Positions 4,421 to 37,024 of a DNA stretch of 64,000 nucleotides are shown here, piece by piece. The translations under genes were made by a program, and so were the position numbers. The DNA comes from Rhytidiadelphus loreus (Eukaryota; Streptophyta; Bryopsida; Hypnales; Hylocomiaceae): the NCBI GenBank assembly GCA_947034895.1, contig OX344764.1, positions 38,070,935-38,134,934 of the forward strand, written 5' to 3'. The notes under the pieces were generated by a model that saw only the letters and a list, made by a program, of their open reading frames with translations, searched no databases and had not been told where the DNA came from. Positions within the stretch are counted from its first letter, which is position 1. The number at the start of each line of letters is the position of its first letter.

Positions 4421-4498
4421 TAGGTGGTGTTTTTAAATTTTTTGAGTGTTTTTTTGGTGTTTTAAGGTGATGTTTGCAAGTTTTCTAGTATTATTATG

Positions 4499-5205: not shown

Positions 5206-5329
5206 CTTCGAAAACCTTACATTTAGTCTAGCCTTGTTTCACCTTGTCCGCAATAAGTAATATCCAGTTTAGTTTTAGTTGAGTGGGTTCCCATACGGGA
5301 ACCCGAGGTTAAGGAGGGAAGTGAAAAAA

Positions 5330-12506: not shown

Positions 12507-12529
12507 CAGGGTTGACGAATTTTAACGTC

Positions 12530-12800
12530 CGGGGCAAAATCACGTCTATTTTTCGGACGTCCACATTTTTGGGACGCGCGGACGATGTGGACGGCATCCG
12601 TCGGCCGTTCAGACGACGCGGACGGGCGGGCGGCACGGTCAGCGCGGTCGGCACGGTCGACTGGCGGACGGGTGGACGGCGCGGACGGTGTGGACGGAAG
12701 CTGCGGACAAACGGGCGAACGTGACCGCGCGGATGGCGAACAGAAGGCGCGGCCGGCGGTCGCGACCGCGTGGACGGTGGACGGAAGCCGCGGACGGGTG
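12530..12800. repeat. GGACGG/CpG-rich subterminal island, left end of F
   Basis: It is densely packed with GGACGG, GCGGACG and CGGTCGGC words starting just inside the left terminus, and includes GGACGTCC, a palindrome present near the ends of all the hAT elements here. Open frames across it on both strands are artefacts of GC-rich repeats. Confidence 0.75.
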
Positions 12801-13244
12801 GACATCCATAAAACAATAGTACATGAAGCCAAATTTGATGCATTATACTATTACATTTTTGTAGGTAATACTTGATCCAGAAAATCATGCACACAATGTA
12901 ATTTCAGTCAATAGTGCTTGACTATTGAAAAACAAAAAAACCTTGATGATATTTTGAACATCATTAAGTTCATGTGCATTACAATGATAGGTTCAAAAAA
13001 TAAATTGCCGTTACATGCTTCCATGTAACAATTCATCATGAACACTTGAATAATGAATTATACATCCCTTTCATCCCGAAGGCTGGTAATCACTATCTCC
13101 TTTCACCTCTGCTCCACAACTATGACCTCTAGTATCCCATCCCGAATCTTCATCTTCATCGTTGTCTGACTTTTCCATATCCTCTGATAAAGATTGTACA
13201 ATTGCCCCTCCTTGTACTTGCTTGGATGCAACTGACCTCGTTGG

Positions 13245-16200
13245 TCAGCCCTTCCTCTGCTCCTGTTTGGCTCTTAGTATAGACTTTCCTATGCCTTCTT
13301 TAAGGCCATGAATCGGTTTTAATTTCCTCGCTGAAATTGGTTGACATACATCAAGAGGGGTTTTACCAAGACTTTGTCTCTTTGATGGGGAAATTGCAAA
13401 AGCCTCCATTAATCTTTTATTTCGAGCTTTGTGGGACTCTTTCACCATTGGTGGTTTTACTTGCGATCCTCCTTGATTGGGTATCTTTGCTCCATTCATC
13501 TGGTGCAATGTTCCATCAGATGATTTGAATGAATCATGTTTTGTTTGGCCAGAACGTTGACCAAACATTGATGCCAATGTCTCGTCCTTCTCATCATCGC
13601 TACATGATGAATTGAATGGATCTAGATTGACACGAAGGTGCATTCCGGTCGGACTGCTCAAATGTTGTTCAACTTGTTTCCTGAATCTTGAGCCTCCGGG
13701 ACCATTCAAAGTTGTACTACCTCTTGTATGTAGTGCTGATGGACGATCACTACGTGGTTGTAATTGGAGATCTTGCACAATCTGCTTCTGGGCTTTGACA
13801 TTGTGAACTAGCATTGGGCGACCAAACTCCGTCACACGTGCATCTACATTTGATGGTACTTCCACACATTCAACACTTGTATTATCCACATTCATGTCAG
13901 ACTTCACCCCACACTCTCCCATGTCATTGACTTCGGGATTTTCTTCTACAAGTGCCATTGTCATGGGTAGACTCTCGAGAATTGGAATCACTTCATCTGT
14001 TTGGGGGATGCAATCATTGACAAACATTGCCTCATTTTCCTCCACTATTTGCGCATGAGTGTCCTCCGTATTTGCTAGAATCCTTTCGCTAGTCAACAAC
14101 TCGGTTCCATCTACAAATTTAGCTATAGAAAGGCCACCTTCATCATATTCACAATTGTCCTCATCCAATGGAAAGTTGTAAATGTCTTCCGCATTTCTAT
14201 CCCCGTCTTCATTGTTCCAATTTGGGCTTCGGAGCGGTTCATCATCCAAATTGGTGATGTCATCGTTCATAGCATCTTCGTCATCGAATAGAGGATCACC
14301 ATCTTGACCATCTTCATCACGCTCGTCCTCCGACATAGAATCTTCCGACTCTACATTCTCAGTGTACCACTTCTTCTCATCGTTTTCCTTTGATGCAGAA
14401 AGGACTTTGGAATTGGTGTACACATACACCAAATCTTGGGCTCTCTGTGGCTTCAACTTGTTTCGAAATTTGTTGTGAACAAATGAATAGCTACTCCAAT
14501 TTCGTTCACATGAAGACGAAGATACCGGTTGGGCCAAAATCCTCTTAGCAATTGAAGCAATGAGCTTCCCACACGCACCTTCAAAATCCCACCAAGCGTG
14601 CGCCGACAATTGTTGCTCGTCCAGGTTCAACATGTTGTGAAATGGAGGTTCCCTATGGCGGAAGGCTACAAATTCTTTTACGACCGAGGCGTACTCCCCT
14701 TGTTTGCAAATTTTCATTAGAACACATTTGCATGCATCCATTGCATCTTGGTCGTCGGCTAGCTCTTGATCTTCAAGAAGGTAGGGGTTCAACAAAGCTC
14801 CTGCATAATGTAGATCGGTCTCCACCAATTCCCGTCGGGCATAATACGGTTGCACTAGTGGAATGACAAGGTCTGAGGATAAACGAAAAGGCGGTTTATC
14901 TAAAGAGAGGACATGTTTATCTAATTTCCTCATTATGTGCAGCACCTTGCCCATGCATGGCCTCTTTGCATCCAAGTCACGTAGACCATTTACAACGGGA
15001 GCCGACAAGTCCTTGAAATTTTGACAACGGCGCCAAAAATGCTCGCTCAAAATTATCTTCTTCACCATCCGACATTCATTGCGGGATTTGGAGTTCCGCC
15101 CAAACTTCCTTGCGTATTCATCCCATTGCGGGTTCGTCACCATTTGTTGCAACTTCCCATTGACCTTCAACATGCGCCCAATCATGTTGTAATTAGAGGC
15201 AAACCTTGTTTCCACTGCCATCAACAAATTATATTCCGGTGAGTACTTCCGAAATATTGCAAGTGGCATGTGCCGCTTCTTGAAGAATTTCACCACGATA
15301 CGGGCATTTTTCATGACCTCTTCAATCCATTGTTCATTCCCCCAATCTTTTAGCAACAAATTGAGGACGTGCACCACACAACCTTGAAAAAAAATGTGGG
15401 GATATTTACTAGATATCAAATTCCATGCTGTAGGGTTCACTTATGCATTATCTGTACTCACTTGCACCACATTGTTGGGGCCTACTTGTTCTATGAAGCT
15501 CTCAAGTATGCCAGCCAAGTATGTTGCATTTTTTTCGTGCCCTGTCGTATCCACCGCTCCCAAGAATTGCTCACCCGCAGAAGACACGAGCATGGCATTT
15601 ATCAACGGCCGATTTGTAACCGACGTCCATCCATCAATAGACAATGTTGCTCCAAACTTCCTAATGCTGTGTTCGGTCCGCTTTCGGAGATTGACCTCAA
15701 TGTCTGCCTTTGCTTAGTCAAGCAATTTATGGCGTAAGTCGTGATAAGACGGTGGGATATAAGGCCGTTGAAACTCGGCGGTTCGCTTCACCGCTTCTTT
15801 GAATGCTGGGTTCCTCGCAACAACAAATGGTATGTTTGCAGCATAAAAGAAATTGGCCCACACCGCATTCAACTTGCGTTTATTTGCTTCTTCAAATCCA
15901 TTCACTAGACTACTTTGCTTTTGACTAATCAGAGGCCTACTGCTTGATCCCCGTGGAGTACCACGTTCACTTGATCTTTGTGTACTGACTACTGAGGTTC
16001 ACTTCAGAAGACAATGGATCCAAATCCTCTGGTGCAGTACATGAGTCGGAATGTGTAGACCGTGCCATGTTTCTTCCATTTGAATTATCGCATTCCCGCA
16101 AAGCCATAGGTGTGCCACTGCCATCCACATTGTTTAGAGACGATCTTCGTGGGATCACCCCTTGGCAACCTAAAAATAAAGCTCAAACTTGAGATGTCAT

Positions 16201-16374
16201 TTTTGCACAAAGGCTAATTCCTTTGTCACGAGACCCCGATGTGCCTTGGTATCCTAAGTGGCTAAACAACCGGCTTACTTTCTTGGCAAACACCAAGTTG
16301 CAAAACCGGCATTGCACTTTACCAACCTCCGGGAAGCCATACCAAGAAGACCAATCCTTGCTGATAGTGATCAC
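13245..16374 (-). pseudogene. hAT transposase with BED zinc finger, broken
   Basis: The N-terminal exon (16374-16183) has a BED-type finger: CRFC near the start, then HLGYQG and a downstream Cys. A second exon follows (about 16165-15967) after a minus-strand acceptor near 16167. The main frame (15905-13245) contains the DUF659-type SIDGWTSVTNRP and VSTDNA, then the hAT C-terminal dimerisation region around residues 280-345 of the last block (WWDFEGACGK, SSSCERNWS). A Ser- and acid-rich tail of about 385 residues follows. The main frame is continuous except for TAA at 15714-15716 and 15441-15443, plus a frame change near 15905-15970. No ATG opens the BED exon, so the true start is probably in an upstream exon. 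This is presumably the transposase that moved F and can act on related ends such as those of B. Confidence 0.88.
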
Positions 16375-16679
16375 CTCCGATTCCGTAAATTAGATTGAAA
16401 TTAAAAATGTAACCGTTGGATAAGATTTGTAAAATATATTAGAAACAATGTGTGAATGAAGCCTTAGAAACCAAAGCCCCCTTGTCCACTGAACTATGCA
16501 TTATCAAGCAAGGGACACAAAATAAATTGCAGCTCCTAGCCTTTAGAAATCTTAGCGTTCAGTTTCTCAAGAGTGCTTGTTAGTTTGAAATTCTAAGAAC
16601 TTATAGAATTCAGATCAGGCCCATTCCTCATGACCGTTGAGCAGCAAAAACTAAAACATTTCTAAAGCCCCAACGATTC
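16375..16679 (-). promoter_or_regulatory. Upstream region of the hAT transposase gene
   Basis: On the minus strand a TATAAG sequence lies near 16600, between the GGACGG island (16680-17030) and the BED exon. This matches the island, TATA, gene order of the three cargo genes but is less clear-cut, because the first exon is not resolved. Confidence 0.4.
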
Positions 16680-17030
16680 CGAGAACAAAAATGCGGACGG
16701 CAGCGACGGAATCGCGGACGGCGACCTGCGACAGGCGGACAGCAGCGTCGGAATCGTGGACGGCGACCTGCGACAGGTAGACGGCAACGTCGAAATTGCG
16801 GATGGCGACCTCTGACAGGCGGACGGCAGCGACGGAATCGCGGACGGCGGACGGCGGACGGCAGTGACGGAATCGCGGACGGCGAGCTGCGACAGGCGGA
16901 CGACAGCAACAGAATCGCGGACGGCGAGCTGTGACAAGCGGACGGCAGCGTCGGAATCGCGGACGGCAAGCTCCGACAGGCGGACGGTAGCGTCAAAATT
17001 GTAGGCGGGTGGCGGACCAGCGGACGGCTG
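16680..17030. repeat. GGACGG island upstream of the hAT transposase
   Basis: About eight imperfect units of roughly 30-40 bp are built on GCGGACGGCAGCGACGGAAT and GCGACAGGCGGACGGC. They give open frames on the minus strand that are repeat artefacts. The island sits just upstream of the transposase gene, in the same relative position as the islands of the other F genes. Confidence 0.75.
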
Positions 17031-17512
17031 CTGGATTTTGACTAATTCTACAAGTTTTAATTTTAGGGACTTAGTTTAGAGATGCGTGATATCTTAGGAA
17101 TTCAGAAATTAATGAGATAAAATTATGTTGAGAGATAGGCATGTCCAAAATCATACTTGACAAAAAAGTATCGCATAAAATATCAAAAACTTAGAAGAGT
17201 AAATTCATAAACATTTGAGTAACCCACATATTTTTATATTAATGAAAAGCAACTCATAGCATACTATGAATGTTGTGAATTAATAGTATTGAATCCTCTC
17301 GAGATTCAAAATAAACAACACTCCATAATGTCATATTGAAATACAAACAAGGTGTAACTACCCTATATATTATCATTGCTACCTCCCTCAGAAAGATGCG
17401 ACGAACCCTCTTTATCCTTCAGCCTTGCACTTGCGCGGCGTGTTTGAGGACCAAGACCTCCGCCACTCATGGGCCCCCTGGACGCAGGTTCCATGTCTAC
17501 TGTGGAAAAGTG
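17031..17512. other. Spacer between hAT transposase promoter and RING gene 3' end
   Basis: AT-rich and non-coding. The plus-strand open frame that starts here and runs to 17866 is antisense to the RING gene and has no recognisable domain. Confidence 0.6.
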
Positions 17513-20500
17513 TCATTTGGTATCCGGAGAGTAGTCATCCTCGTCTTCAATCTTCCGTTTATTCTTCCGTTTTGGAGTCAAATCCACGTCTTCTGCCTTC
17601 AACGCTCTCAAAGTAGCATCCACTTTATCTACCAAAAAGTTGACCACATCATCATCATTTTTCATGGAAAACCACTTCGGTTCTTCTCCCCCACTAAAAA
17701 TGCCCTCCAATGCATTATGATTTCGCCCATCCTCTTATCAAATGCCCCCGCCACCTCCACCATTGAATTTTCTGTGCTTGATTGCCCATCTAGTTCCACA
17801 AAGGCACGAACTTTTGCAGCTTCCTCCAACTTTGATAAAAATAGGGCCCTCCCTAGTAAAGTGTGATTGTAATCCCCGTATTGCTCATTAAACTCTTGTG
17901 TAGGCTCCACCTCTATCCAATTGCCATCTAGTCCTTTCTTCACTTCCTTTTTGGGAAATCGAAAGAATTTATGGTGTTGCATGCTCCAATGGCCCCCCAT
18001 ACTACGACAAAACACTTCTCGATCCTCCTCGTTGGCAATACCTCTAGCTCGCAACTCCACCTCTTGATCATGGGTCATCCACACCAAGGAATCTATCGGC
18101 ACCTCCGATGATTCGTATAGCCCATGTGTAGAATTTACCGAATCCCATTTTAGACTTTTTCCCCAATGCGCATAATTTTGAAATTTGAATGGCGCTTGGT
18201 CTAACGGAAGGGTCCATCGATTGTATTCATGGCCAGAGGGCATAGCTTCCAAGATCCCGAGCATTTCGTAGAACCTAGGAGGCAAGGGAGAACAACACTC
18301 GGGGCACACCGAACGAACAAGGGATGCTCTGACTATGCATGTGATGTGGAAAGTGTGGGGACATTGGCCCATGGTGAGGGCTCCTTTGGGCCCAAAATGA
18401 ACTCGACAAAGGCTACAATGACCCTCCAATATTAAGGCCAAAGGATCACAAGCATGCACCATTGTCTTGTCATTCTTCTTGATGTGTGCCGAAAGCGTGG
18501 GATAAGGGACCCAACCTTCTTCTAGTTCCAAGGCCCAATTAATGGAGGCCACCTCTTCCTTCTTCGTGTGGTTCAAACGCTCGAACATTGCATCCATGTC
18601 TCCCCAATATGTGATTTCGGTGGACCCCGTTGGATGTAAATCAAACATCTTCTTCAAACGCCAAAGAGAGGACTCCACACTATCGCATTCTTCATCCGAC
18701 TTCATTGCCAATTTGAGTAGCCCTTTCATTACTCGTGATACTACAGACGGTTTGTCTTCAAGTTTTTGCACCCATGCCAACCATCGAGAGTCCAAAGTGC
18801 TCTTCGGCATACATTCATCCAATTGCACTATCCGTTGCAGTCGTTTCAACTCGGCCTCCAAACGCGTGTTTTCTTCGGTGACCTCGTTCAATTTTTGCTT
18901 CAATTCTTCGACCTCATTGCTTTCTGTTTGCATGGAAGCATCGTGGAATGTGGAGTTAGTATTACCGATGGGGGTCAAATATAACAAATCCGGATTGTTG
19001 TTTTCCTCAATGCCATCTAGTATGTCCTCCACTTTCTCCTTTCCCTTCTCGACATCCACTTCACTTTCTCGGATTTTCTTCTTCAACGCTACAATTTCGT
19101 ACTCCAAGTCTTCAATAAACTTCCTTTGGAAAAGCAATGTATTATGTCGACGCTCTGATTGAGCCTCCAATGTCTCTAGCTTCTCTTTCAATTTCGAAGC
19201 ATCCGCCGCCAACTTGAGATTCTCAACATCTATACCCTTATACTTCTTGATCTCCTCTTGGTATTCACTCAAAACCTTCAAGTCTGTAATACACTCGTCG
19301 AGAAATGGTGTCATAGATTGGCTGAACTTTATGAAGTCCAAGGCACCACTCAACAATTCAAGCACTAATTTGGAAAAATCCGTTGCAACTTCTTGCAACC
19401 TTGGAGCAACTTCAGCTACAAATTGAGCCGTAACTGCCAATTTTGATGCGGTCAAAACAAAATCAGCCCATTGACTTTCGGAAGGCTCATGTTGGGTTTC
19501 CGCGCCTCCGTTACTCATGCCATCCTCATTGGTGGGCTCCATGTTCTTTAAACGTTCTTCGTGTGAGTGTGTGACCGCCACAAATGTGAACCTTTACACA
19601 AAGATTCTAATAATGCAACCGAGGGCATCTGACGAACAATTTGCCATTTTGATGTCCTCAAAGATGACAAATGTGGATACTTGGAATCGATAAATCCGCC
19701 AAGAATGGTCTCATTTGGCAGCATGCCATCTAATTGTTCTCCATGATGAGGTGAAGGATGCACCTCAACTCCTAGATTCAATGTCGGGCTCGGTGTCTTC
19801 GGCAAACTTTGCTTCGAAGTACTTGCCAAATGATTTAAAGCATTGCTCTCTATAAGATTCTAAATGGCAATATTAGTGTTAGCAACTTCTCCCTCAATGA
19901 CATCATCATGACGTTCATGTGGTGCGGATGGGGCCACGTGCTCCACCATTGTTGTTGTTCCATTTGGTGTGCATATCAAATCCGTTGGAGGAGATAAAAA
20001 TACGTCGCCTTCCACATGCTCGCCTTTGAAATCTATCATTGCCGTACGGTTTTGTGTTGAAGCCAATTGCATTGCCGAACTTGTGACCTCCACGTCCTTG
20101 GCCATAGTCATTGTCATTGGTTTGACCTCTCTTTTGGATTTAAATGCCTCACTTGGCCTTGCCTGTGGATTGTACAAATCGGGAATATCTTTCCGATTAC
20201 ATTCAAGTAGACGTGGAGCATTCGCTGTCGTTGGAAACGTGCTCCAATCCACCTTGCGTGCCAATATCAATTCTGCATACACCATAGAAGCCAAGCTGTA
20301 GTTTATATACCCCTTGGACATTGCTTTATCCCCGAAGAGGGCCCGCCAAACTTCATGTGCTCGATGAATGAAATGTGCATTGTTGCAATTCCCTGGTTTG
20401 CAACAAAAGCCATGAGTATGGATGATGTGGGCCTTCCTAGGCTACAACTTGTCGATGTGGTACATCTTCACATACTTCTTGCACGTTTTGGAGGACCAAT

Positions 20501-20660
20501 ATTCTGCTTCCTCTGCTTCCCAACCCCCCTCTGCTTTGATGTTGGGATCATCGAAAATCTCATAGTGGAGCTTATGGGCGGTCCCCTTTGGTTTAGGCCT
20601 CCTACTATTGTCACCTCCGCCGGTCAACCCACCACTACCTTCAACGCCTTGACCACTCAT
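17513..20660 (-). pseudogene. RING-H2 coiled-coil protein with novel N-terminal Cys/His domain (cargo of F), broken
   Basis: The likely start is ATG at 20660. The N-terminal part (20660-19548, one frame) has a Gly-rich leader, then TCKKYVKMYHIDKL, a Cys cluster HGFCCKPGNCNN and NYSLASMVYAEL. This domain is shared with the gene at 35051-36181. The C-terminal part (19581-17662) has heptad-rich helices around residues 105-175 and 222-252 and a RING-H2 finger around residues 389-430: CSLC, then CPHTFHITC, then CPEC, with all eight ligands present. That suggests an E3 ubiquitin ligase role. Damage is TAG at 20442-20444 and 19860-19862, a frame change near 19580, and another near 17690, after which 55 residues ending in a basic KRKNKRK tail continue in a new frame. 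Substrate and role are unknown. Confidence 0.8.
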
Positions 20661-20884
20661 GGTTGTCAACTTGAACTTGTCCCCAATTTAATTTAAATAG
20701 TCACCAAAAGTACGTATCTTCAATCCACCCAAGTTTCAATGAATGTTTGTATGTGAACCAATAATGAAAGATGAATGACCCCACCTCTCCACCATGTAGG
20801 AGCAACTGGCACAATGAAGCAACAGTAGCACATCCAACACGGTTGTGAATCTTAGGAAGGAGAGGGAAGTGAGAAAAAACAAGA

Positions 20885-21195
20885 AGGTCGTCCGCCCTTA
20901 TAGCCGTCCGAAACCAAACCTAAAATCGTCTGCCACCGAGCCTCCTCCGAACGTCGTGAAGTGGACCCAAATGTCCGCTCAATCGGACAGCCCATCCGTC
21001 TCCAAATCCGACGCTGCCGTCCGCCTGCTGCCCCCCATCCGCGATTCCAACGCTGCCGTCCGCATTTCCGACGGGCCGTCTGCCCGTCAAAGCCGCCGTC
21101 CGCTTGCTCCGACGGATCCGTCCGCCTCTTCGACGCTGCCGTCTGCATTTCTGACGGGTCCGTCCGCCCTTCCCTCCTCGAGGTCCGCCCAAGCA
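20885..21195. promoter_or_regulatory. CCGTCC island with TATA box, promoter of the RING gene
   Basis: This CpG-rich block holds many CCGTCC, GTCCGC and CGACGCTGCCGTC words. On the minus strand CTATAAGG (20896-20903) lies at its gene-proximal edge, about 240 bp upstream of the ATG at 20660. The kinase gene has almost the same TATA-to-ATG spacing once the LTR inserted in its leader is removed. Confidence 0.6.
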
Positions 21196-22588
21196 CACTT
21201 TGGGGAGTTTGGGCCTTGTTTTCACCCTCTTGAGTCCTCTAGTCCTCTCTTGATTTTCAGAAGCATAGGATTCTTTCATTTGGGAATGTAGAGATGTTGT
21301 ACTAGTACTGGGTGCTCATTGATGAAGGAATGTTTCAATGTTCGAAGCATTGACTTGGTTTTCATAAATGTCAAGGCAATCCACCGACTCAAAAGTAGTA
21401 TTTTGAGTAATTCAATGCCTCTAAACCCTTGTTAGGGTTTAGGATATAGGGTTTAGGCCTTTCGTTGTCAAAATGGGGGTGACAATCACAATCCTTTGTC
21501 TTTGATTTTGGATAAACAAATATGCCCTCCAAAATTCCAAATAGAACTAATAACAAAATGGAAAGGAGTTATTGAATTGCAAACAATTCCGAAGGTCCAA
21601 TTCATGTAATATTCAAAGTTGATTCATTTTCCAATGGATCAAATCTTTTAGGGGTTTGAGTGCCCAAGCCATTCAAAGTGTGTTGTACGTATGAAAAAAA
21701 AACATAGCCTTTTAGTATCCACAATGAAAGAAACATTTGTCCTTGCATTCCCTAACCATGTAGATGTTTAGACTTTAAAATTTTGCTTGAATGCCTAGTA
21801 GTGTGCACATGAACTTGGAGAGTGAAATGACCATGGACTTGTGAGGTTATAAGAAGACAAGTGTATGCACTATTTTCATAGCACGTTGTCCCACCCTAGT
21901 AATTGAGCAAGTTATAATTTCATACTAGAATTAATTTAACTTGATATTTTTGGCGCTAATATTTTGGCGCTAATATTTTGGCGCTAATATTTTGGCACCT
22001 TATGATTCTTTAAAGAATGGAAATCAATACATTTGAAATCAATAAATTCATTCAACTCAAAGGGGGGGGGAGACTTCTAGAAATCTACTTCCACACATTT
22101 TCATGCTAGAGTATCGAAACCTTTGTGAGCCCCTAATATCCCCTAAACCCAAAATACCATTTAAAAGATTTTTTGTCTTTGGTTTTGAAATGACCATTTT
22201 ATGAGGTGTTGACATACAAGAAAAAAACCTAGTAGCTTCATTTGAACAATGAGAAGCTTTAAGTTTTTTCTCGAAGTTCGAATAAGTAGAATTAAATTAC
22301 CATGTGTTAAATTCTTTATTTCATTTAAAAGTTTATTTCATAGGAAACTCAATTCCATCCCTAGAAAATAAGAGAAAATTATAAACTCAATGCATACATG
22401 TAAAAACAACATACAAAAATATGTGAATCTTTTAGATAATTCCTAAATTCACACATCCATTTTTTTATTTATTTATTAACTTTTAGATCAAATGAAATCC
22501 CAACGCCATTGGCACAAAGGAACCACATTAAAAATGAAATTGAACCGGAGGGCCTGCCAACTGGTGACATCAAGGATTCAAAGACCCC
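21196..22588. other. Intergenic spacer between divergent cargo genes of F
   Basis: AT-rich, with no convincing gene. It holds degenerate TTTAGGG units near 21425-21455 and a 14-bp tandem repeat at 21953-21999. It continues at 26573 after the LTR C insertion. Confidence 0.6.
21953..21999 (+). repeat. 14-bp tandem repeat TTTTGGCGCTAATA
   Basis: Three full copies and one partial copy, head to tail. The TTTGGCGC core resembles an E2F-type site, but nothing more supports a regulatory role. Confidence 0.8.
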
Positions 22589-22954
22589 TGTGGGCGCTTA
22601 ATTACACACCCTTGGTAATTAATCGGACACAACCAGGTTCTAGGGGTTAACTGAATTTTAACCTAATGGGTGACTAAGCGTCGGTCCATTGTGCCTTCCA
22701 AGCAATGGATCTTCTTTACTAAGTTCCTAGTTTCCGCAGGTGACAATGGAGTTGCCCCCAATTGGCGAGGGAATAGTTCGGGCTCACCGTCCCCTAACGG
22801 CAGCCTATGCGAACTACCACCGAATCTATCCTAATCTATGGGAATCTGAGGCTAATTGACCTTTCCTAAGACTGAGGAGGGATTACCTAAGTCCCTTCCA
22901 TGGTTTTCTGAGTTGATTGGGTCTTTTCCTAATCTAAGTTATCTTTTTCCCTAA

Positions 22955-23315
22955 TTTAATTTTCTAATTTAATTTATCTTTTCTCTAATTTAATCTTCTA
23001 ATTTAATTGATCTAATTTATCTTTTATCTAATTTATCTCCTAATTTAATTTCTTAATTTAATTTATCTTTGTTCCTAATTTAATCTTCTAGTTTAATTTA
23101 TCTTTATCTCCTAATTTAATTTCTTAATTTAATTTATCTTTTTTCCTAATTTAATCTTCTAATTTAATTTATCTTTTATCTAATTTATCTCCTAATTTAA
23201 TTCCTTAATTTAATTTATCCTTTTTCCTAATTTAATCTTCTAATTTAATTGATCTTTTATCTAATTTATCTCCTAATTTAATCTTCTAATTTAATTTATC
23301 TTTTATCTAAATTTT
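22955..23315 (-). repeat. AATTTAATT-rich tandem tract in LTR C
   Basis: Repeated TCTAATTTAATTTATCTTTT-type units of variable period, at the position of the 73-bp repeat in LTR A. Confidence 0.8.
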
Positions 23316-25302: not shown

Positions 25303-25310
25303 CTTTTATA
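25303..25310 (-). promoter_or_regulatory. TATA box of LTR C
   Basis: TATAAAAG on the minus strand, about 1.26 kb from the LTR start at 26572. Its surroundings match those of LTRs A and D. Confidence 0.7.
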
Positions 25311-26572
25311 GGTTTCCAAGGGCCCACTCCCCCCCTCGACGAGTAACCTCATCCATCCGGATTTTCATCCAAATTTGAGATTTTCATCTAATTTTGGGTT
25401 TTACGCTGGTCCTAACCTCTAACTTTTGGAGTTTAGCTCGGAATTGCAAATGGATTGCGCCAATGGCTTCAAAATGACATTTTTAGCCTAAAGGATCCCT
25501 ACCCCCTATTTCTATCACAAAAAACCCATCGGAAACTAGTGCCAACCAGAGTCAATTAAAAGGTTAAAAACCTAACTCTTGGGGTTTACCTCTTTTGGCT
25601 TGGGTAACTAGCTAGGGTTGTTGGGGAGGCTCTAGGGAGTAAGAAAAGGCTCCTTGATGTCTTCGTTCCGACTTCGTACGCTCCCGGGATGCCGGTCAAC
25701 CCCGCAAAGATCTTGCCGTAAATATTAATTGGGGGGATGTTGTCAATTTCGGCTACTTCCCGCTATTGGAACTCCATGAATTTTGTCGGGGCGCATTATT
25801 AACATAAAAGATGCTAGTCTAATTTTTAGTGAGATTTTACCGCGGCCTGGGTATTTTCTATGAATTTCCCAACGTGGCCTTTGGCGGTTGACCGCTCAGA
25901 AAAAGATCCTTTGGAGATCAGAGAAAACCGAGACTTTTGGGGGGACCTCTCATGGAGTCCCCCAAGCCACGTGCCAAGTCTTGGGCTATTCTGGCACACA
26001 ATTGGTGGCGAGGTGAAAACTGACTTCGGTTGAATCACTGGCAGTCAGGGAATCTTTCACATGTGAGGGAATCTTGGCGAACGGGTTTTGCCATGGATGT
26101 CCCGACATGTTCCAGATCCGAGAACACTATCCGGCGGCTATGGATTCCTCCATGCGGCCTGTCTTGGGACAAGTAACACCTGCAAGCTAACAATTTGGAT
26201 TTCTAATGTTTCGTCGGTGGAATGGGGAAACTAGAACCTATCTTTGGAGATTTACGTGGGGACCCCCCTAATTCTCCTAAGACTAATTTAGCCTATCATG
26301 GTCACATGCACTAGGTTTTGGGCTATTTTGGGTAAGTTCCCAGTAGCCCTATTGTTTCCCACTAATTACGGGTTCTAACCTATATACAAGTGGGTTTTAT
26401 GGGTAATCTATGGATAAAAGGCTATTTATGACCAAATGCTATACTGGTACGTGACATACCTATTTTGGTTCTACACTCTTTTTTGGGCTTTTTGTACTAC
26501 TTTATGCCTTAATTTGTAATAAACTAAAAAAAAAAAAACAATGAGTCCCAAGTGACGAATTTGGGGCTCACA

Positions 26573-27003
26573 ACCCCTAAGGCTCTAATGACCAATTTGG
26601 GCGGGATGCACTTCAAGATCCCTCCCCCGTCCGCTTAGGCGGACCTCGCCGTCCTCCGTTCCCACGCAGCCGTCCGCCCGTCAGAGCCGCCGTTCGCCTG
26701 TCGGGCCCCCCGTCCGCCTGCTGATCCCCATCCGCGTGCTGCAGGCCGCCGTCCGCGATTTCGACGCTGCCGTCCGCGTCGCGGAGTCGGCGTCCGCCTG
26801 GGTGGTCAGTTCTGGCCGTCCGATGAAGCGGACTGCCGATCCGTCCGTTTGATCGGACGGCTGAAGCGAGACAGACCGTTGGCTGTCCGCTTTGGGGTCC
26901 GTCCGCTCGTGTGGACTTCGAGACCGTCCGTCTCATATAAGGGGGCGCGGACAGCCCGTCCGCTCTCACTTTTGCCTTCCCTCTTTTGCTTTGCAAGAGA
27001 GAG
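26573..27003 (+). promoter_or_regulatory. GGACGG/CCGTCC island and TATA box, promoter of the kinase-like gene
   Basis: The island runs from about 26625 to 26965, rich in CCGTCC, GCGGAC and CpG. ATATAAGG lies at 26935-26942, followed by a pyrimidine-rich leader. Removing LTR E, which sits between 27003 and 32403, puts this TATA box about 230 bp upstream of the kinase ATG at 32570. Confidence 0.6.
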
Positions 27004-29924
27004 TGTGAGTGTTTCTAACTCCACCCTTGAGTCAGAAAGTTGCACACAGGTTCTAGCGACATAAGTTAATGGTTTAATTGGGTGAATGGTAAACTCAGTG
27101 TTCTTTGGCCTTCCAAGCAATGGACACTTTGTTATGTTGATTTTTACCTACTTTAAGTACTTCAAAACACTCTAATAGTTAAGAAATAAAGGTTGTTGAG
27201 AGTTAGTTAATCGTGATTTAACTTTCAGCTAAACTAAAATTCTACCTAAACTAAATCAAAGAATACAATTTGCCATTTCCAAAATGGTAAAGCAAGTTGG
27301 ATTCTGATATACCTAATGAAAGTTATGTGTGGATGAAATTCGTACCTAATTCTATCCTAAAAACTTCATCCGTCAACTAAAAATAGCAAAATAATGTAAA
27401 TAAATTTAAATTTCAGGGTTGAAAGGTTAATTAAATTAATCTAATGGAATTTTTAGAGAAAACCTAGTTTTGACCTATTTTAGGACTTTTCATCCAAAAT
27501 TAGGTCAAATCTTCATCCACCCTTTTATCCTTCCAAATTAAAGTAATTTAAAAAGTAAAGGGTGTATTTAGAATCTTCAAAAGATTCTCTAAAAGATTAT
27601 GGTTTCAAAAGATTCCCTAGTCGTACCTTGAGAATATTCCTAATTGTTCTTTAATTAATCCTAATTCTAAGTTATTATTCTAAATTTAGTGATTTTTTAT
27701 GGTTTTATGGTTTTTATGAGTAAAGTGATTAATTAACTTCTTGTTAAGATAAAAAGTAAGAATTTAGAACTTTTAGGTGAAAACTTTTAAATGGATGAAA
27801 ATTCCCCTTGGTTGGATGGAATTCCTTCCTTTAAGAATTTTCAAGAGAATAAGTAGATAAATTAGGTTTTGACTTTCCCTAATTATTCTAATATTCCCTA
27901 AGTTCATAAATTAAATTAGATTCCTTTTGAGATTCTTTTGGATGAGATTACTATTTCGTTTTCCAAATTAATTCAAAGTTAATCTAATTATTACTTTTTA
28001 CGATTTTAGATAAATTTTCAACAATTTAAATTCTACTAGCTATTGGATTCTCAATGGTTAATTTTGTTAGTTTTAATTTTCTAATCTAGATTTTAAAAGA
28101 ATGAAAGCAAAAGAAAAGACAAAAGATAAAATTTGAAATCATACCTTGGTGTCGAGAATGTCGATCGTCCCATTGTCGCAAAACACCATCATAATCGTCT
28201 CCTCGAAATTCTCCATTGTCTTTCATGAATGTGGAAGAAATCTTAGTATTCTTGTTTTTAAACCTATCTAAAAAGTCCAAATTTGTTAGTTTTGGCAATT
28301 TTAAAACTAATCCTTTGATTTTAGGAATTTAAATTAAATGATAAATTTAATTCATATTTCCTAAGTTTTCAATGAATAGTAGTTTTATTCGATTGTCAAT
28401 TTTTTAATAGTTGTTTTGTTAAATATTCCAAGATATTAGTTGTTGTTTGTTTTTATTGTTTTGGCTTATTAGGCCTAATAAAACAAATCCCCCAACTACA
28501 AACAAACAACTAATTTGGATTTGGAATCCTAATTAATAACTAAAACCAAATGGATGAATAGTATCCTAATAAAATAATCAAAAACAATCAAAAACAAATC
28601 TATCGATGAATAGTAGAAAGAATAAATTGAATAAACAAACCAAAACAATTAGCCCAATGAATAGTTAGATTCTCACCTTAATAGTTGTTTAATTGTTGAA
28701 TTCCTTCACGTGTCGAATTCTTCCTTCTTATTCTCCTCCTTCTTCCAATTGTTGGTTTATTGTTGTTGTTGTTGAATTCTTGGCTATGGCATTTGAAAGA
28801 ATTTGAGAGATCCAAGAGACGAGATGAATGGTTAGTTCTACACTCTTAGTGTTCAATTTTCCCCAAAACACCAAAATGTTGAGCGTGGCAACAACCGCCT
28901 ATGCTTGTAGATTATTTTGATTTTTTCTTCTTCAAATGTTCCAGTCAGATTGTGGATGAACAAAACACTTACTGAAATTATGTTGGACTTGGTTCGTAAT
29001 GGTTTTGAGCTTCTGGTTCAATGTTCTGTTGGACCTCCTGGTTCCAATGGTGTTTCAACTGTCTGCTTCCTTGTGCTGATCCTCCGTCTTCAAGCTAATA
29101 CCCGCCTTCGGTGGTTGATACCCGGCCTGCCTCGTCAATCGATACCCGGCCTGCCCGTTAGTCTCCACCTCGCAGCCAGTCCGTCGTCCAGCAGTCTTGT
29201 CGGGTCGTTGACCTTACAGGCAGTCCGTCGCACAGCAAGCAGTCCCGTCCCCCCGCCGGTCCACCAATCAGAGGGAGCCACGTGTCGAGGCGCAATTGGC
29301 CTTCAATCCGACTCTTCTCCTTGTTCCCCCAGTTCCTTGTTCCACAGCTCGTGACTGCTTGTCGTTGGACTGGTCCAACTCTCTTTTCCCGTGGAGACTG
29401 GATGGTTAAACAAGCCAAACAAACAAGGAAACAAAACTGAACTTTGCGGTTAAGCTCATTTACTGAAGTTTAAACTTACTTGTTGGAATGCTAATTTCCA
29501 ATTCTGAAAACTAGGCACTCAATACTAAATTCAAGAGGAAAATAGTCTTTTCTTTTTGAAACTGACAAAACAAAACAAAGATGATTAGTTTTGATAAAGG
29601 ACTGACACAACCATTTTACATGAAACAAAGCAATAAGTAATGAATTTAAAAGTGAAATAGTAACAAGTGGCGTTTTTGGAAACAAAATACCTCCACCACG
29701 TGCGCCACGCAAGAGAATTAAAACAATGGGAATTTGGACTTTAAATGCAATTCACAAAAGAATCATTTTTCGCATATTCTTGTTTTTTAAAGTCAAAATT
29801 TCGCCGTACGAGATAATTCTATGTTTCCAAGGGCAAATCTTTAAAAGTCAAAGCTCCGCCGTGCAGGGGCTACCCTAGGCAACACCAAAGATTTACAAAA
29901 TTAACTGTCAAATCAAAGTTTCAA

Positions 29925-30320
29925 GTACCCGTTTCCAGGTTTCAAAATCAAAGCTCCGCCGTGTGGGAGCAACCCCAGGAATTAACAGTCAAATCAAAGT
30001 TTCAAATACCCGTTTCTAGGTTTCAAAGTCAAGCTCCGCCGTGTGGGAGCAACCCCAGGAATTAACCGACAACTTTAAATCTCAAGTACCCGTTTCCAGG
30101 TTTCAAAGTCAAAGCTCCGCCGTGCGGGAGCAACCCCAGGAATAACCAGTATCCAAGGATCCAAACTAGTATTTTGAAACTTAATTCTTAAAGGAGGTAC
30201 ACATGACAGTGTTTAACTGAACATTAAAAACTAATTTCCAAAATTCAAGGCAAAGTTTTAGTTTAATCACTAAAGGAGGTACACATGACAGTGTTTAACC
30301 GAACATTAGCAACTATTCAA
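29925..30320 (-). repeat. Two tandem repeats of about 80 bp in LTR E
   Basis: Three copies start near 29929, 30009 and 30088 (CCCGTTTCCAGGTTTC then CAAAGCTCCGCCGTG). Next to them are two copies with AAAGGAGGTACACATGACAG near 30192 and 30272. The first contains the motif conserved across all four LTRs. Confidence 0.8.
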
Positions 30321-30832
30321 ACCAAACACCCGTTATACAACGAGTTTTGGCACGTGATGATTCTTAAAACCTTTTGGCAAAGTCCAGCCTTGCCGCTTTA
30401 AAGTTTTAAGTTCACAGACTAGTATCAATTCACACAAATAGTTGGTTAGTATCCAAAAGAACAATAAAATCAAAGTAGAGTTTGGGCACTACTCCCACAA
30501 CTCCCAAAATATCAAAGTTTTGGGGCTTGAAGCCTCCAAATTCAAGAAATAAGTTAGTTAACACAAACAATACTAGAGTTAGGGGATTTCTTCCACCTAA
30601 ACTCTTGAAAAGCGAAGTTTTGGGGCTTAAAGCCTCCAAATTCAAACAAGAAAAGAAAACAAAGCTTTGAAGGGGCCCTCCGGACCTTCAAAGTACAAGA
30701 GAATAGAAGAAAATAGAAGAAAAGAGCCAAAATTTGGCTTAAAAAGTGCTCCGACAAGTGTCGGTAGCACGACAAGAGCAACAACAAGAATGAAACAAAG
30801 AATGAGGGCCACGAACAACCTCGAGGAAGGGC

Positions 30833-30840
30833 CTTATATA
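30833..30840 (-). promoter_or_regulatory. TATA box of LTR E
   Basis: TATATAAG on the minus strand lies just downstream of a C/G homopolymer run, 1.56 kb from the LTR start. Its position corresponds to the TATA boxes of the other three LTRs. Confidence 0.65.
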
Positions 30841-32569
30841 CTTGCTCCCGCCCCCCCCCGGTAAGTTGTTCGTAAATTATCTTTTACTTTCAATCTAGAT
30901 ATTTTGCTAAACTACCTAAACGTATTTTCAAAATAATCTTTGTTTAATGGGAAGGAAGGTTCTCAAGTGAGTTCCTTCTAGGCCCTAAATGGCCTTAGAA
31001 TCTTTTCCCAAATCAAATATTTGATTTTCCCAAAGATATTTTGAAAACCTACCTAATTAACCAAGATATTTTCTGTTTTAATCTAGGGTTAGTTCTAAAT
31101 TGTCTTTCTTTAGTCCAAAAGATGGCTTCTTACGCAAGACAAGTATCTTGGGCAAATCCAATCTTCGATTTTACAAGAGATATTTGCAAAATCAACCCAG
31201 ATTAATCAAAAATTACCTTTTAAAAGTCAAACTAAGGGCTGACCCTCTCTATCTTTTGAGGGACAACTCGAAACTGAAAACAAACTGCGCCATCGCGTTC
31301 AGAAGACCCCAATTAGCCTCAAGGACCCCTTACCCCTACCTCTCCAGCCGTTTTAAATCGCAAATTTGAGTCACGGTAACTCAGAACAAAAGTTAAAAAG
31401 CTAACTTTTGAAGTTTGCGTATTTTGATGAAACTGTCGGTCCTGAGTGGTTTAGAATATTCGTGGGAGTAGGAATTGACCCTTGAAACGCTCCGTTCGGA
31501 CACCGCTAGCTCCTGGTTTGCCGGTCAACCCGCCGCCAAGTTGTAAATTCTTGTAAAATTCGCTGTCGGTTCTAATTTTGGTAGTTGGGAATGTCGGAAT
31601 GTCTTCAAACTTGACAGGGCTCTTTATTGGCACACAAAACACTATCCTAATTTTTAGTGAAATTTTACCGCAACATTGGTAATTTCTAGGAATTTACGAA
31701 TGCAGTTTTAAGCGGTTGACTTTCCATGGAGTCATCGTGGAGTTTTGTAAAATCCCGAAACTTTTGGGCAATCTTCTACAAGATGTCCATCAACTAAGGG
31801 CAAAACCAAATCTCCAATAAGAATGCTATTTTTAGCAATTCTTTAATAATTTCCACCCAGGGGGGAAATTATTCTTGATACTGGGGGAATCTTGGATGAT
31901 CGGGCTTCTATTTGACCTCCTGGCATGCTTTGACCTAGAAAAGCACCTCTCTGTATGTTCCAATCATCATTTCCTCCATCTTGGTCTGCGAATGAATGTA
32001 TTTCTCAAAATTACCTGCAAACAATAAATCTAACTTTTTCGAGTTGGATTTGGACTGACTCGGATTAGACTCTAACTTTTAACCAGTTTGTTACATGTAT
32101 ACTTATAGCTGTTGTATTACATGAACAAGACACTAGGACTGGTTAACTCTCAAATTCTCACATCGCTCGGAATTACTGACTTAACTACTTATTTATACTA
32201 ATAAGACCTAAAATTAGTGAAAATGTAACGTCTTACGTGTTTCACGCATTTAAGGCCATGACACACCCCTTTGGTAGGGACTTCTACCAAAACCCACAAT
32301 AATTGTATTTTTATATATTTTTTTCCTATTTTTCACTCAAAAATTAACTAAAAATCGCGAAAAATAAGTTCAGAGTTCCAAGTGCCAACTTGAGGGCTCA
32401 CAGAGAGCGGAGAGCTTGGTGGTTTATCCTCCATTGGCTCCTTTCGTAGGGAAGGTAGGAGTTGGGTTTTGGCGGCCTATATTTTGCCTGTTTTTTCTAG
32501 TTTATGTGTACTTGGTGCACTTTAATTTTTTATGAATTAAATTGGGACTAAAAATTCATACTTTTTACG

Positions 32570-34054
32570 ATGCCGAGACCGAAGAGAGCGACGAAGGGGA
32601 AGAATGTGGTGCCTGATATTGACTCAGCACGTGAACTTCCTTCCAATGCTTGCAAAGCATTCTTGATTGAATACATTGTGAAGTTTTATGAGGCGGAAAC
32701 TACTGTGTCTCTTGACACTAAATATGTGAGATACCAAGAGGAATGTGTAGACAAATTCAAGATGGATATGACACAGAAGTTCACGGATGCTCTAAACGTT
32801 CCAGAATGGATTCATGAAATGGAGAAGAAGGGCTTCCAACAATTTCTAAAGAACAGGGTGCAAGACGCATTGTGGAATGCGAAGGTGATCCTAGAAAAAT
32901 ACGGTAGGGAACACTGTGCAAGTGATGAAAGCTTTGAACAAGTCATTTTCAAAGCTGACTTGTTTGTTCGTCGTTGCGCTCCGTTTGCAAAGAGACGGAA
33001 TTGGCGAGGGTCATTGGGTTGGTGGACTTCGAATGAGGGAGATGTAGAATTGCAATGTGGATGACAGCATCTCATAGCACTACCAAACACAACAAGGGTG
33101 ATTCTACAAGATGACAAAATCTTGAAGGGCGGATACGCAACAATTCGCAGGGTTCGAATTGAAGGATGTCATGAGATTCCGTCATTTTGGGAATTTGCTG
33201 CAAAGATATCTCATCAACAACGGATTCGTCCTCAACTTGCGAAGTTGGAGCACCAAAACGAATCAATGGCAGTGAGGATTCCACATGACGGAGTTATTCG
33301 GTTTGCCGCTGTCCATGCAACAAACAATGAAGGGTATGCATATTGGTGGAATGGTGGTACATTGCGGCAAATGTTGATCCTCGATAATGATTATCCAGAT
33401 AACATTGCCATTCAATTGTCTTATTCACGACCAACGCCCGAAGAGGTGATTCAAGCTTTCCGTCTTGGTCGATGGAGAAAGAAGCGCACCGAGTTGGCAT
33501 GGGCATTGGTGCATATCATGAATGCGGTCCACAATGCGGGTCATCTACACAATGATATTTCTCCCGACAATATCATGTTTCACTTTCCTGAGGATGAATC
33601 ACATGTTTACATTGGAGTTTGCGATTGGGGCATGTCTACGGTTCGTACTGAACCAATGAAGTCTTTGTATACGTTCACATCCGCGGTAGATCAGGATGCA
33701 GCTTTGAACCGAAGGTGGTGGGTGGACCCTTCAATTGCATACGTGCACCGCAAAGATGCGGATGTGGAAATGATTCCAACTTTGTCACGTAAATCGGAGG
33801 AATATGCCGTTGGTTGAATAGCTCAACGGATCAACAAACTATGCATGTCAGAGGCCTACACATCGCTTCATCGTGAAAATGAAGGACATACGAGGTTTAG
33901 CCACCACAATTTGGCAAGGGTATTTCACCTCTACTTAGATCGCCTTTGCAATCCAATGATTGCGGAGCGCGGAAGTTTTTCCGAAATCATCCAACGATTT
34001 ACTAATTCTTACAATTGGCCTATTCCAGATGACCACTTCCGTCACTCATATTAG
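32570..34054 (+). pseudogene. Protein-kinase-like gene (cargo of F), two in-frame stops
   Basis: A single-exon frame of about 494 codons starts at ATG 32570 with basic MPRPKRATKGK. The N-terminal 170 residues are unrecognised. The kinase-like fold follows: glycine-loop-like KGGYATIRRVRI (near 33128), FAAKIS as a possible VAIK lysine, a catalytic-loop-like HNDISPDN (33548-33571) and DWG in place of DFG (33623-33631). The catalytic Asp and Asn are kept, while the HRD Arg is replaced by Asn. Stops are TGA at 33062-33064 and 33815-33817; the frame is otherwise open to TAG at 34052. It was probably a divergent serine/threonine-type kinase. The 5' leader is split by LTR E. Activity and targets are unknown. 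Confidence 0.78.
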
Positions 34055-35050: not shown

Positions 35051-36181
35051 TTACAAATGTCCAATAGTCCAATCTACTTCACTCAGATTCTGATTCGGTG
35101 TCATCTTTTTGGCTTGGGCCTGTACCAGTAGACCTATAAACATTGAAAAATGGTCCTCCGCCATAGTAGTCGTCTCCATATCTGTTTTGCCCACTTGCTT
35201 ACAGTCCATAATTTCCTTGGTATGGACCTCCAAAAGTTGGAGGAGGAATTGAATCATTGTGAGTAGATGCTCCTTGAGTTGAACCGCCATAAGAAGGGCC
35301 TCCTTGAGGTTCATGAGAACCACCTCCAGTAGACGTAAAGTTGTATTGAGAGCCTCCCTGGTTACCTTCAAAATGATGCGTGGTTCCGTGGCTTGTCCTT
35401 GAGCTGTGATACCCCCTTGAGGGTCATTATCGTAGTGTGAAATACTTCGCGTATCTTGCGAGCCATATACACCACGATCGGGTTTGTACACCCCATGATG
35501 GCCATATTGTCGACCACGGTCCTCTAGGCTTCTTTGCATTGCCTCTCGCATTCCTTGTTGGTATTGAATGTCCTCCCGATCGACTGTACGCTTGTACCTC
35601 TCTTCCATCCTCGCGGGTGTTGGAGTGTCTTTCTCATCATCATCACTTGACCATTCATCTTCTGCATCCGGCAATACAACCGGTGGAAATCCAAACTGGC
35701 CTCGATTAGACCACTCTGGCATGCAATCGCTCGGTCCAGTTCAACTGGTATAAAGTACCGCATCATTGCAATTCAAGTGGATAACATCTTTTCCGTAAAT
35801 TGTGCGCCAATCTACATCTTTGTGGAGTACAATCTCCGCCCAAACCATGCTCATGTTGGAATAGTTCATTAAATTCGGTTTGGAGTCCCGTATTTGAGCT
35901 GAACGTGTTACTTCCTCGTATCGATGAACAAAGTGTTTGCTTTGGCATGTGGAAATTTGTCCTTCCCAACGGCGAACTTGCACCTCTGCGCGTTCTCTTG
36001 ACCACATTTTGGAGAGGTGCGTCATTTTGATGTACTTCTTGCACGTTGTGCAGTCCTAAGATTTTTTGGATTCTTCTTCCCATCCCGGTTCAGCTATGCA
36101 CATTTGGTTTTCCCAATCATCCCAATTTATGTCTTGGGATTTGCCCTTCTTACTAGACTTCGATTTGTTATCGCGAGGCAT
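35051..36181 (-). pseudogene. Cys/His-domain protein with UIM-like motif (cargo of F), broken
   Basis: The start is ATG at 36181 with a Lys/Ser-rich leader. Residues about 45-145 match the N-terminal domain of the RING gene: TCKKYIKMTHLSKM, then a conserved His, NYSNMSMVWAEI and KDVDW. Further on, near 35520-35561, QQGMREAMQRSLED fits a ubiquitin-interacting motif (Ala, three residues, Ser, acidic cap). A Gly/Tyr/Ser-rich tail and an acidic end follow; the tail reads best in another frame, so a frameshift near 35390 is likely. Stops are TAG at 36056-36058 and TGA at 35741-35743, with the frame otherwise continuous from 36181 to about 35390. Function is unknown. The shared domain and the UIM suggest a link with the RING protein of the same element. 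Confidence 0.7.
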
Positions 36182-36348
36182 GGTAAGCTTGCTTAAATGA
36201 TTAATGATTCGCACTTACACTTGAAACAATTTAGGATTCGATCACAATCATTTGCACACCAAAACGGAAGAGGCGCACAGAGCCTTAGACATTAGATCAC
36301 CCACTCCGCAAGGGAAACGATTGTGGCAAAATAAGCCGTGCTCTCTGC

Positions 36349-36795
36349 TATTTATGCAATCGGACAGCATGAATCCACGTACGGGAGCATCGGACGGCAC
36401 ACAGGCGGACGGCAAGGTCGAGCGGTGGAAAATCGGCGTCCGTCACATCGCACGGTCACCGTCAAAAGCGGACGGGCCCCCGACGGGCGGATGACCATCC
36501 GGTCGCCAGTCCGCCCCTGTTCCGTCGAGCCGTCCGCTTCTACTCCATCGGGCTGTCCGCTCCTGCCTCGTCGGCTTGTCCGCTTCTGATCCATCGGGCC
36601 GTCCGCTCCTGTTCCGTCGGGCCGTCTGCTCTTGTTCCGTCCGGCCGCTTCTAATCCGACGGGTCGTCTGCTCCTGTTCCGTTGGAAGAATCGGCCATCC
36701 GCCCGTCCAGCGGTCGGACGCCATCTACTGCCAAATATGTCAAAAGACGTCCTGGGGTCAGCGTCCGCAGACTCTGGACGTCCGGACGCCCTGTC
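36349..36795 (-). promoter_or_regulatory. GGACGG/CCGTCC island and TATA box at the right end of F
   Basis: The island (about 36360-36795) is built of CCGTCCGCTCCTGTTCCGTC-type units. On the minus strand ATAAATA (36349-36355) lies at its gene-proximal edge, about 170 bp upstream of the ATG at 36181. The island also forms the right subterminal region of F, ending in GGACGTCCGGACG just before the terminus. Confidence 0.6.
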
Positions 36796-37024
36796 AACCC
36801 TAATGCCATCAGTACAGGTATGAAGCACCTAGCCGTTCGTTGTAGACATGTTGAGCAGCAATCCGACAAGGGGAAACTTTCTTCTTTTTGCCGGTTTAGG
36901 GTTTAGGGTTTTTTGTGTCATCAAGGGTTTAGTGTTTCAGAGATCTGGGTTGGAAATTGCGGGATTCACCTTCCTATGACACTTGCATTGTCCCTGTTGC
37001 ATACCCCGGCGTATTTTTTAATCA

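Follow-up and report, generated by a model that had tools for sequence, protein, structure and literature searches.

The window analyzed here, a 64,000-nucleotide stretch of the Rhytidiadelphus loreus genome (contig OX344764.1, positions 38,070,935 to 38,134,934), contains one copy, now dead, of a multi-copy family of giant hAT transposons (family I). The unit of this family is 14-15 kb long and features hAT termini, 8-bp target-site duplications (TSDs), a transposase gene and three accessory genes that encode a protein kinase, a RING coiled-coil protein and a protein with a segment resembling a ubiquitin-interacting motif (UIM); it has multiplied as a unit. We consider it fairly likely that the accessory genes form the transposon's own co-regulated module, plausibly for anti-silencing or the control of transposition.

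Borders and gene order of family I

The window element is flanked by the exact duplication ATGCCATC. Its left terminus is CAGGGTTGACGAATTTTAACG and its right terminus, inverted, is TAGGGTTGACAGGGCGTCC; about 10 bp agree, with a C/T mismatch at base 1. As expected of hAT elements, the ends thus form short inverted repeats that follow the (C/T)A..G pattern (CAGGGTTGAC and, inverted, TAGGGTTGAC), and the end motif of the giant hAT is CAGGGTTG, bordered by 8-bp TSDs. The element occupies 24,296 bp. Subtraction of two long terminal repeat (LTR)-like insertions, with one TSD copy each, leaves 14,903 bp, close to the 15 kb estimated in an earlier, sequence-only reading of this DNA.

The genome assembly comprises 489 contigs with a total of 407 Mb, and the lengths of five contigs are 51-94 Mb. 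A search of it with the left-terminal 186 bases gave 40 scored places from 227 candidates. The ten best-scoring places after the window's own were taken as copies e1-e10, with 20 kb each. Four of them (e2, e6, e7, e10) have an inverted right terminus and their own exact 8-bp TSD, e1 has both borders and a TSD with one mismatch, and no right end was seen within 20 kb in the other five (e3, e4, e5, e8, e9). The five two-ended copies measure 14,319-18,534 bp. Six copies (e1, e2, e5, e6, e7, e10) share the order transposase (-), RING gene (-), kinase (+), UIM-like gene (-), and five of these six are enclosed by a single pair of TSD-bounded ends. Within their 20 kb, e4 and e8 harbor only the transposase and the RING gene (part of the latter in e8); e3 has nothing more than a distant fragment of the transposase, and family-I genes are absent from e9. 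Over their long common parts, copies are about 93-98% identical in DNA sequence, with values down to 77% in some short pieces, arrays and ends among them. The sequence-only reading had proposed that positions 12507-36802 are a giant hAT transposon and had named, as the check, several copies with the same gene order between the same ends and 8-bp TSDs; such copies are present in this sample. Its concern that the border match might be coincidental is dispelled by the TSDs of the four other copies and by the 19-nt right terminus, which occurs at 201 places in the genome with at most one mismatch and at none in the reversed control.

An occupied and an empty insertion site were also recovered. Copy e6 lies inside a family-III kinase gene (family III is described below) and is flanked by TGCGTGGA, while locus e9 holds the same kinase gene uninterrupted, with a single TGCGTGGA at the spot. 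The flanks match at 48 of 48 bases on the left, with a 96% match over the outer 76 bases, offset by an indel, and at 95% of 298 bases on the right. More generally, giant elements insert into one another, including into the kinase genes of such elements (e4 and e6 loci: L015, L016, L019, L020, L032). The family-I RING gene of e5 is itself interrupted (L017-L018, joined positions 5658-11284) by another hAT-like element, whose ends are TAGGATTGTC/CAGGGTTGTC and whose 8-bp TSD CCCAATGC is exact.

Linkage of genes and ends across the genome

Candidates in the genome searches numbered 1076 (kinase), 1393 (transposase), 1150 (RING gene) and 519 (UIM-like gene). The best 150 kinase candidates that were scored comprise 132 close matches (86-100% identity) and 18 of a sister group (77-78%); the best 61 transposases scored at 93-100% and the best 69 RING genes at 92-100%, and the best 150 UIM-like candidates gave 152 matches, often two per copy. 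Within these sets, a kinase lies on the expected side and strand of 55 of the 69 RING copies within 12 kb and of 60 within 40 kb (40-kb controls: wrong side 0, wrong strand 3). The same holds for 35 of the 61 transposases within 12 kb and 50 within 40 kb (wrong side 0, wrong strand 1), and at least 32 of the 69 RING copies have one of the best 61 transposases on the expected side within 40 kb.

The termini are linked to the same genes. Among 40 right ends, a kinase lies inward within 8 kb of 34 and within 40 kb of 36; among 40 left ends, a listed transposase is found within 8 kb of 15 and a kinase within 40 kb of 30, with one or the other near 34. Outward counts are 0 in both cases. The exact 19-nt right terminus occurs within 8 kb downstream of 54 of the 113 close kinases on contigs C1-C4, a lower bound given that only exact matches were listed (100 places on these contigs), and upstream and wrong-strand controls are 0. 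The other 59 kinases have no exact terminus within 8 kb, and the rate drops with kinase score (24/37, 18/37, 12/39). Cargo genes located mostly outside such ends, which the sequence-only reading had named as grounds for abandoning its proposal, are not what these termini and the RING-kinase pairs reveal.

The copies are unevenly distributed. Contig C3 holds 61 of the 130 close kinase copies of C1-C5, among the matches listed, and makes up 21% of that sequence (binomial P 1e-10); 14 of the 15 listed kinase matches at or below 91% identity are also on C3. This contig is perhaps a low-recombination region or sex chromosome, and the locus tag of a Ceratodon relative, KC19_VG055000, reads as a V-chromosome gene. 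Identical or near-identical scores of C421 and C2:61.5 Mb, and of C5:48.07 and 48.10 Mb, suggest a duplicate contig and an inverted duplication.

Genes and predicted proteins

All four genes are broken in the window copy (Table 1). In better copies, each is open as a single long frame at least once (1062, 1095, 494 and 366 amino acids), so the intact frames that the sequence-only reading advised looking for do exist. An open frame of at least 480 amino acids without a stop within the match was read from the scored list for 56 of the 132 close kinases.

The transposase is recognized by its hAT dimerisation domain (PF05699, 39.8-42.6 bits; cut-off 21.4) and, at the domain level in an intact copy, by an RNase-H-like core of the DUF659 form (PF04937, 118.4 bits; cut-off 34.7). 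As to a BED zinc finger, its N-terminus has C..C ... H-like spacing by eye and no Pfam match. For the kinase, K212, E231, N334 and D352 are invariant and D329 nearly so in 39 relatives, and D329 is invariant in the 16 of alignment A2. These positions are the Lys, Glu, Asp (HxD), Asn and Asp (DxG) with catalytic roles in kinases. The catalytic residues of the kinase superfamily are present, with a Pfam score of 25.1 that is below the cut-off of 31.7, and a profile search of PDB found no relative at E <= 0.001. A structure model of the kinase relative P0007 (predicted local distance difference test score, pLDDT, 84.9) has a helical N-terminal part at residues 26-165 followed by strands and helices, an order that we read as kinase-like.

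The eight Cys/His ligands of a RING-H2 domain are invariant in alignments A1 and A4 of the RING protein, and its profile matches the RNF24 RING in PDB at E 1.5e-6. Judging from its sequence, this protein is likely an E3 ligase. Its N-terminal domain is 37% identical to that of the UIM-like protein over 113 amino acids (E 4e-20), which bears out the earlier suggestion that two of the cargo genes are paralogous. The UIM-like segment is kept in family II and was judged by eye against the UIM consensus; Pfam scans of two pieces of the gene gave no match. Database relatives number 66 for the kinase, six for the RING protein and nine for the transposase. The kinase matches include two Ceratodon purpureus proteins (49% and 41% identical) and one labelled as a Bacilli bacterium metagenome-assembled genome. 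The Ceratodon pair comprises M758_3G001500 and KC19_VG055000. A scan of viral contigs with the RING alignment gave nine pattern matches, none of them confirmed.

Related families and selection

Three further families carry related genes. Family II, known from one copy of 18,135 bp with the exact TSD CTCTGCTA, encodes all four in the order transposase (-), RING (-), UIM (+), kinase (+), and is 57% (transposase), 47% (RING), 66% (kinase) and 62% (UIM) identical to family I. Exact 8-bp TSDs, as in hAT elements, are accordingly present in the window copy, in four of the ten family-I copies and in this copy. In transposase and kinase alike, no two families are closer to each other than I and II. 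Between these two, the ratio of nonsynonymous to synonymous substitution rates (dN/dS) is 0.31 for the transposase, 0.31 for the RING gene, 0.20 for the kinase and 0.30 for the UIM-like gene (dS 0.69-1.35), which indicates purifying selection on the coding sequences of all four genes. A stretch of about 100 amino acids in the family-II transposase (L029-L031) is nearly identical to family I, compared with 57% overall, and points to recent gene conversion or recombination between families.

Family III (locus e9) has the order RING (-, in two frames), kinase (+), transposase (-). Relative to family I, its transposase is 41% identical over 690 amino acids and its kinase 27.5% over 483. Its ends, CAGGGTTGTC and inverted CAAGGTTGTC, lie 15,454 bp apart, and the right end was found only with the one-mismatch TSD GGTTCCTT/GGTTCCTC (7 of 8 bases match, one copy). 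The kinase and transposase of this family are 76% and 82% identical to the database proteins P0066 and P0081, so close relatives exist in other public sequence sets. Family IV (locus e4) harbors a transposase (-), a gene with the RING-type N-terminal domain (-) and a kinase piece (+) that another left end of this family apparently interrupts; no right end of family IV was found at this locus. The three bordered families thus have transposase, RING-type and kinase genes in common. The sequence-only reading had described the extra genes as a dedicated, co-inherited cargo, and both the selection between families I and II and the recurrence of transposase, RING-type and kinase genes in a third bordered family uphold that description.

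CG-rich arrays at ends and promoters

The density of GGACG/CGTCC was compared along six family-I elements and one family-II element. It is 11-26 per kb across the terminal 500 bp on either side and the 700 bp upstream of genes, relative to 0.6-1.2 per kb elsewhere. The earlier claim of a common promoter type was therefore right in substance: in both families, each of the four genes has a CG-rich array upstream. The window kinase has none of these motifs in its own upstream 700 bp because insertion 2 displaced the array. In family I, the right end itself is the upstream array of the UIM-like gene, and in family II this gene is relocated inward, with an array of its own. Counts of 8-mers in four elements put CCGTCCGC and CGGACGGC first in family I, whereas the commonest of family II are CGTCGGAA, CCGTCGGA and CCGTCCGA. 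The four longest arrays of family III lie at its left end and upstream of the RING, kinase and transposase genes, the last one at the right end; shorter ones occur elsewhere.

A proposed transposon-borne control module and its alternatives

The recurrence of RING-type and kinase genes, the arrays common to ends and promoters, and the regulatory types of the proteins suggest functions for the transposon itself, and we infer that the accessory genes serve the transposon rather than the host. In such a scheme, the arrays would be bound by an element-encoded protein, either the transposase or the N-terminal domain common to the RING and UIM-like proteins, and the ends and all four promoters would thereby become one regulon. 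Host silencing factors at these arrays could in turn be modified or removed by the RING protein, UIM-like protein and kinase, or these proteins could set the level of transposase. The analogy is with VANC proteins, which release VANDAL elements from silencing by binding noncoding tandem repeats.

Several observations weigh against this interpretation. Stops interrupt the transposase and the RING gene, once each, in the family-II copy from which dN/dS was calculated, and pooled pairwise dN/dS within family I is 0.43-0.72, highest for the kinase, a range that includes the decay of dead copies. The UIM-like gene was not recognized in family III (one locus) and may not be universal, and its motif was identified by eye only. 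Pfam scores of the kinase and RING proteins are mostly under the curated cut-offs. Nine of the 69 RING copies and 11 of the 61 transposases have no listed kinase within 40 kb, and 43 of the 100 listed right termini have none within 25 kb. Finally, the arrays could be mere GC-rich promoters, and a few short ones are found where none would be expected: e6 and e10 have one each, and the family-II copy has one or two.

One alternative is that the accessory proteins act in transposition itself—in assembly of the transposase complex, excision or the choice of repair, or cell-cycle timing via kinase and ubiquitin—and not in anti-silencing. Arrays common to ends and promoters also fit a transposase-centered circuit, for which TnpA/TnpD of Spm are a parallel, and the RING profile also matches APC11 RING domains (E 0.001-0.0016). 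Nothing specific speaks against such a role beyond the fact that, to our knowledge, most hAT elements transpose with transposase alone, and we regard it as rather unlikely. Slightly lower still do we place the idea that the element ships plant-beneficial defense or signaling genes, in the manner of Starships, and is tolerated for a useful kinase or RING protein. RING and kinase proteins are typical of signaling, the accessory genes are under purifying selection, and many copies lie on one chromosome, as host-retained genes could. The cargo, however, is unchanging in that transposase, RING-type and kinase genes recur together across families, the gene arrays resemble those of the transposon ends, and many copies are broken.

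Gene capture by plant DNA transposons is common, and the window copy is broken, so the extra genes might be passive, Pack-hAT-like hitch-hikers from one ancestral capture of host genes that were later copied without use. A Pack-type element would hold host-gene fragments without common selection; the frames here are full length and single, dN/dS between families I and II is low for each gene, and the genes persist across families with different orders. Passive capture is largely refuted and very improbable. Likewise, nesting is frequent at these loci and could place separate transposons together by chance, yet the four genes keep the same order and spacing in six of ten copies, five within one TSD-bounded pair of ends, and wrong-side controls are 0; these counts refute a nested-insertion artefact and leave it next to no probability. 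Coincidental TSDs are excluded by the TSDs of other copies and the right-terminus counts given above.

Plant hAT elements are otherwise known as small parasites that encode transposase alone. A clade in which RING-type and kinase genes have persisted next to the transposase despite deep divergence, and of which many kinase frames in the genome are still open, offers a system for studying how transposons get past host control via ubiquitin and kinase signaling. Arrays that differ between families at ends and promoters make sequence recognition testable. The finding would also be a caution for annotation, as in such genomes many genes labelled "protein kinase" or "RING" may belong to transposons.

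Other features of the window

Table 1. Features of the giant hAT element and its surroundings in the window; gene coordinates are projections from intact relatives (aa, amino acids).
Feature	Position	Strand	Remark
Left TSD ATGCCATC	12499..12506	.	Exact repeat
Giant hAT element, family I, this copy	12507..36802	+	Borders, TSD, comparison with other copies
Left terminus and subterminal CG-rich array (GGACG/CGTCC)	12507..12756	+	
hAT transposase gene (DUF659 and hAT dimerisation domain, long acidic C-terminal extension; 1062 aa intact)	13197..16365	-	4 stops and a 7-bp insertion here
CG-rich tandem array upstream of transposase gene	16654..17041	.	
RING coiled-coil gene (1095 aa intact); N-terminal domain common with UIM-like protein	17366..20660	-	3 stops and 2 frameshifting indels here
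CG-rich tandem array upstream of RING gene	20818..21288	.	
Later insertion 1, LTR-like (TG..CA), TSD ACCCC	22589..26572	-	
CG-rich array of kinase gene, separated from the gene by insertion 2	26573..27003	.	
Later insertion 2, LTR-like (TG..CA), TSD GAGAG	27004..32402	.	
Protein kinase gene (494 aa intact); catalytic Lys, Glu, Asp, Asn, Asp kept in relatives	32570..34051	+	2 stops here
UIM-like gene (366 aa intact); RING-protein-related N-terminal domain, then UIM-resembling motif (by eye)	35082..36181	-	2 stops and 1 frameshift here
Right terminus with CG-rich array, also upstream of UIM-like gene	36509..36802	-	
Right TSD ATGCCATC	36803..36810	.	Exact repeat
Second element with family-II ends, 5,077 bp, no family gene recognized	40030..45106	+	TSD TCCACAAG on both sides

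The ends of the second element match those of family II over 60 bp at 90% and 50 bp at 96%. A third element at 1-9427 is a partial copy of this 5-kb element (92-96% identical to 41162-45106) with its right end at 9427, and is split by an LTR-like unit at 1718-7281. Both copies of the 5-kb element contain short GTTTAGG tandem repeats that resemble plant telomeres (1167-1193 and 42335-42368). The unit at 1718-7281 and another at 53315-57162 belong to the same family as insertion 1; the latter is a third LTR-like TG..CA copy with an imperfect 5-bp TSD, and the units are 3.8-5.6 kb long. Long open frames at 37022-37996 and 39323-40090, beside the insertion site, have no Pfam match, and Rfam and tRNA scans of the window gave no matches.

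Comparison with known systems

Ac and Tam3 are a few kb long, encode only transposase and feature 8-bp TSDs, short terminal inverted repeats, a hAT dimerisation domain and subterminal repeats. The giant hAT is alike in all four of these traits and differs in its length of 14-18 kb and three extra genes. Our searches of the open-access literature, several of which gave mostly off-topic papers, returned no such element; Repbase Reports and preprints lie outside their coverage, and absence from print is not established by them. Three aspects look new: the set of genes, the conservation of this set within a clade of plant hATs, and the layout of the arrays. The DNA transposon lineage Lanisha is linked to Ceratodon. 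We rejected it as the identity of this family, as the accessible part of the recent report describes it as EnSpm-like, not hAT (PMC12730594).

Accessory chromatin and kinase genes in DNA transposons have precedent in rust fungi, where, in the accessible part of the same report, hAT7 elements carry TET/JBP genes and IS3EU elements an alpha-kinase gene (PMC12730594). The likeness lies in hAT-superfamily and other DNA transposons with a non-transposase gene, and the IS3EU kinase is opposite in orientation to its transposase (PMC12730594). Relative to the moss element, these are fungal, hAT7 has a 7-bp TSD, TET genes pass between superfamilies, the kinase is of the alpha type, and no RING/UIM set is seen in that part of the report (PMC12730594). 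The 14-kb "ToxhAT" was set aside as a precedent; it is probably no hAT, having been reclassified by its TA TSD in the text available to us (PMC12506042).

Starships of fungi are likewise large and gene-carrying, and are described in that text with a tyrosine recombinase captain, in place of the hAT transposase and recurring RING-type and kinase genes seen here (PMC12506042). Our element does not belong to this type: rather than a DUF3435 tyrosine recombinase at the 5' edge, it has a transposase with hAT domains, and the scanned element proteins gave no recombinase match. The sequence-only reading had called the element an analogue of large cargo-carrying transposons. The large gene-carrying unit stands; host-useful cargo of the Starship kind is less likely than accessory genes of the element's own, as in VANDALs. 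We prefer the latter because RING-type and kinase genes recur in families, the arrays are common to genes and ends, and the proteins resemble regulators.

VANDAL elements are Mutator-like, with a MULE transposase and a 9-bp TSD, and VANC is not known to be a kinase or a RING protein. The giant hAT, with its hAT transposase, 8-bp TSD, and arrays at both ends and at each of four genes, differs from them and is not a member of that group. The resemblance is one of organization: in the accessible part of the report on Arabidopsis VANDALs, these are plant DNA transposons with their own non-transposase genes and noncoding tandem repeats, and the element protein VANC binds the rapidly diverging repeats and removes silencing (PMC10398659). 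Arrays whose commonest motifs differ between families I and II recall those VANC target repeats as described there. We tentatively propose, as a possibility short of an even chance, that this moss hAT lineage has evolved a control module that is conserved and self-contained. It would consist of the RING, UIM-like and kinase proteins, the first two with a common docking domain, would be wired by family-specific arrays to the element's ends and promoters, and would constitute a second, independent plant system of sequence-specific anti-silencing or self-regulation, acting via ubiquitin and phosphorylation.

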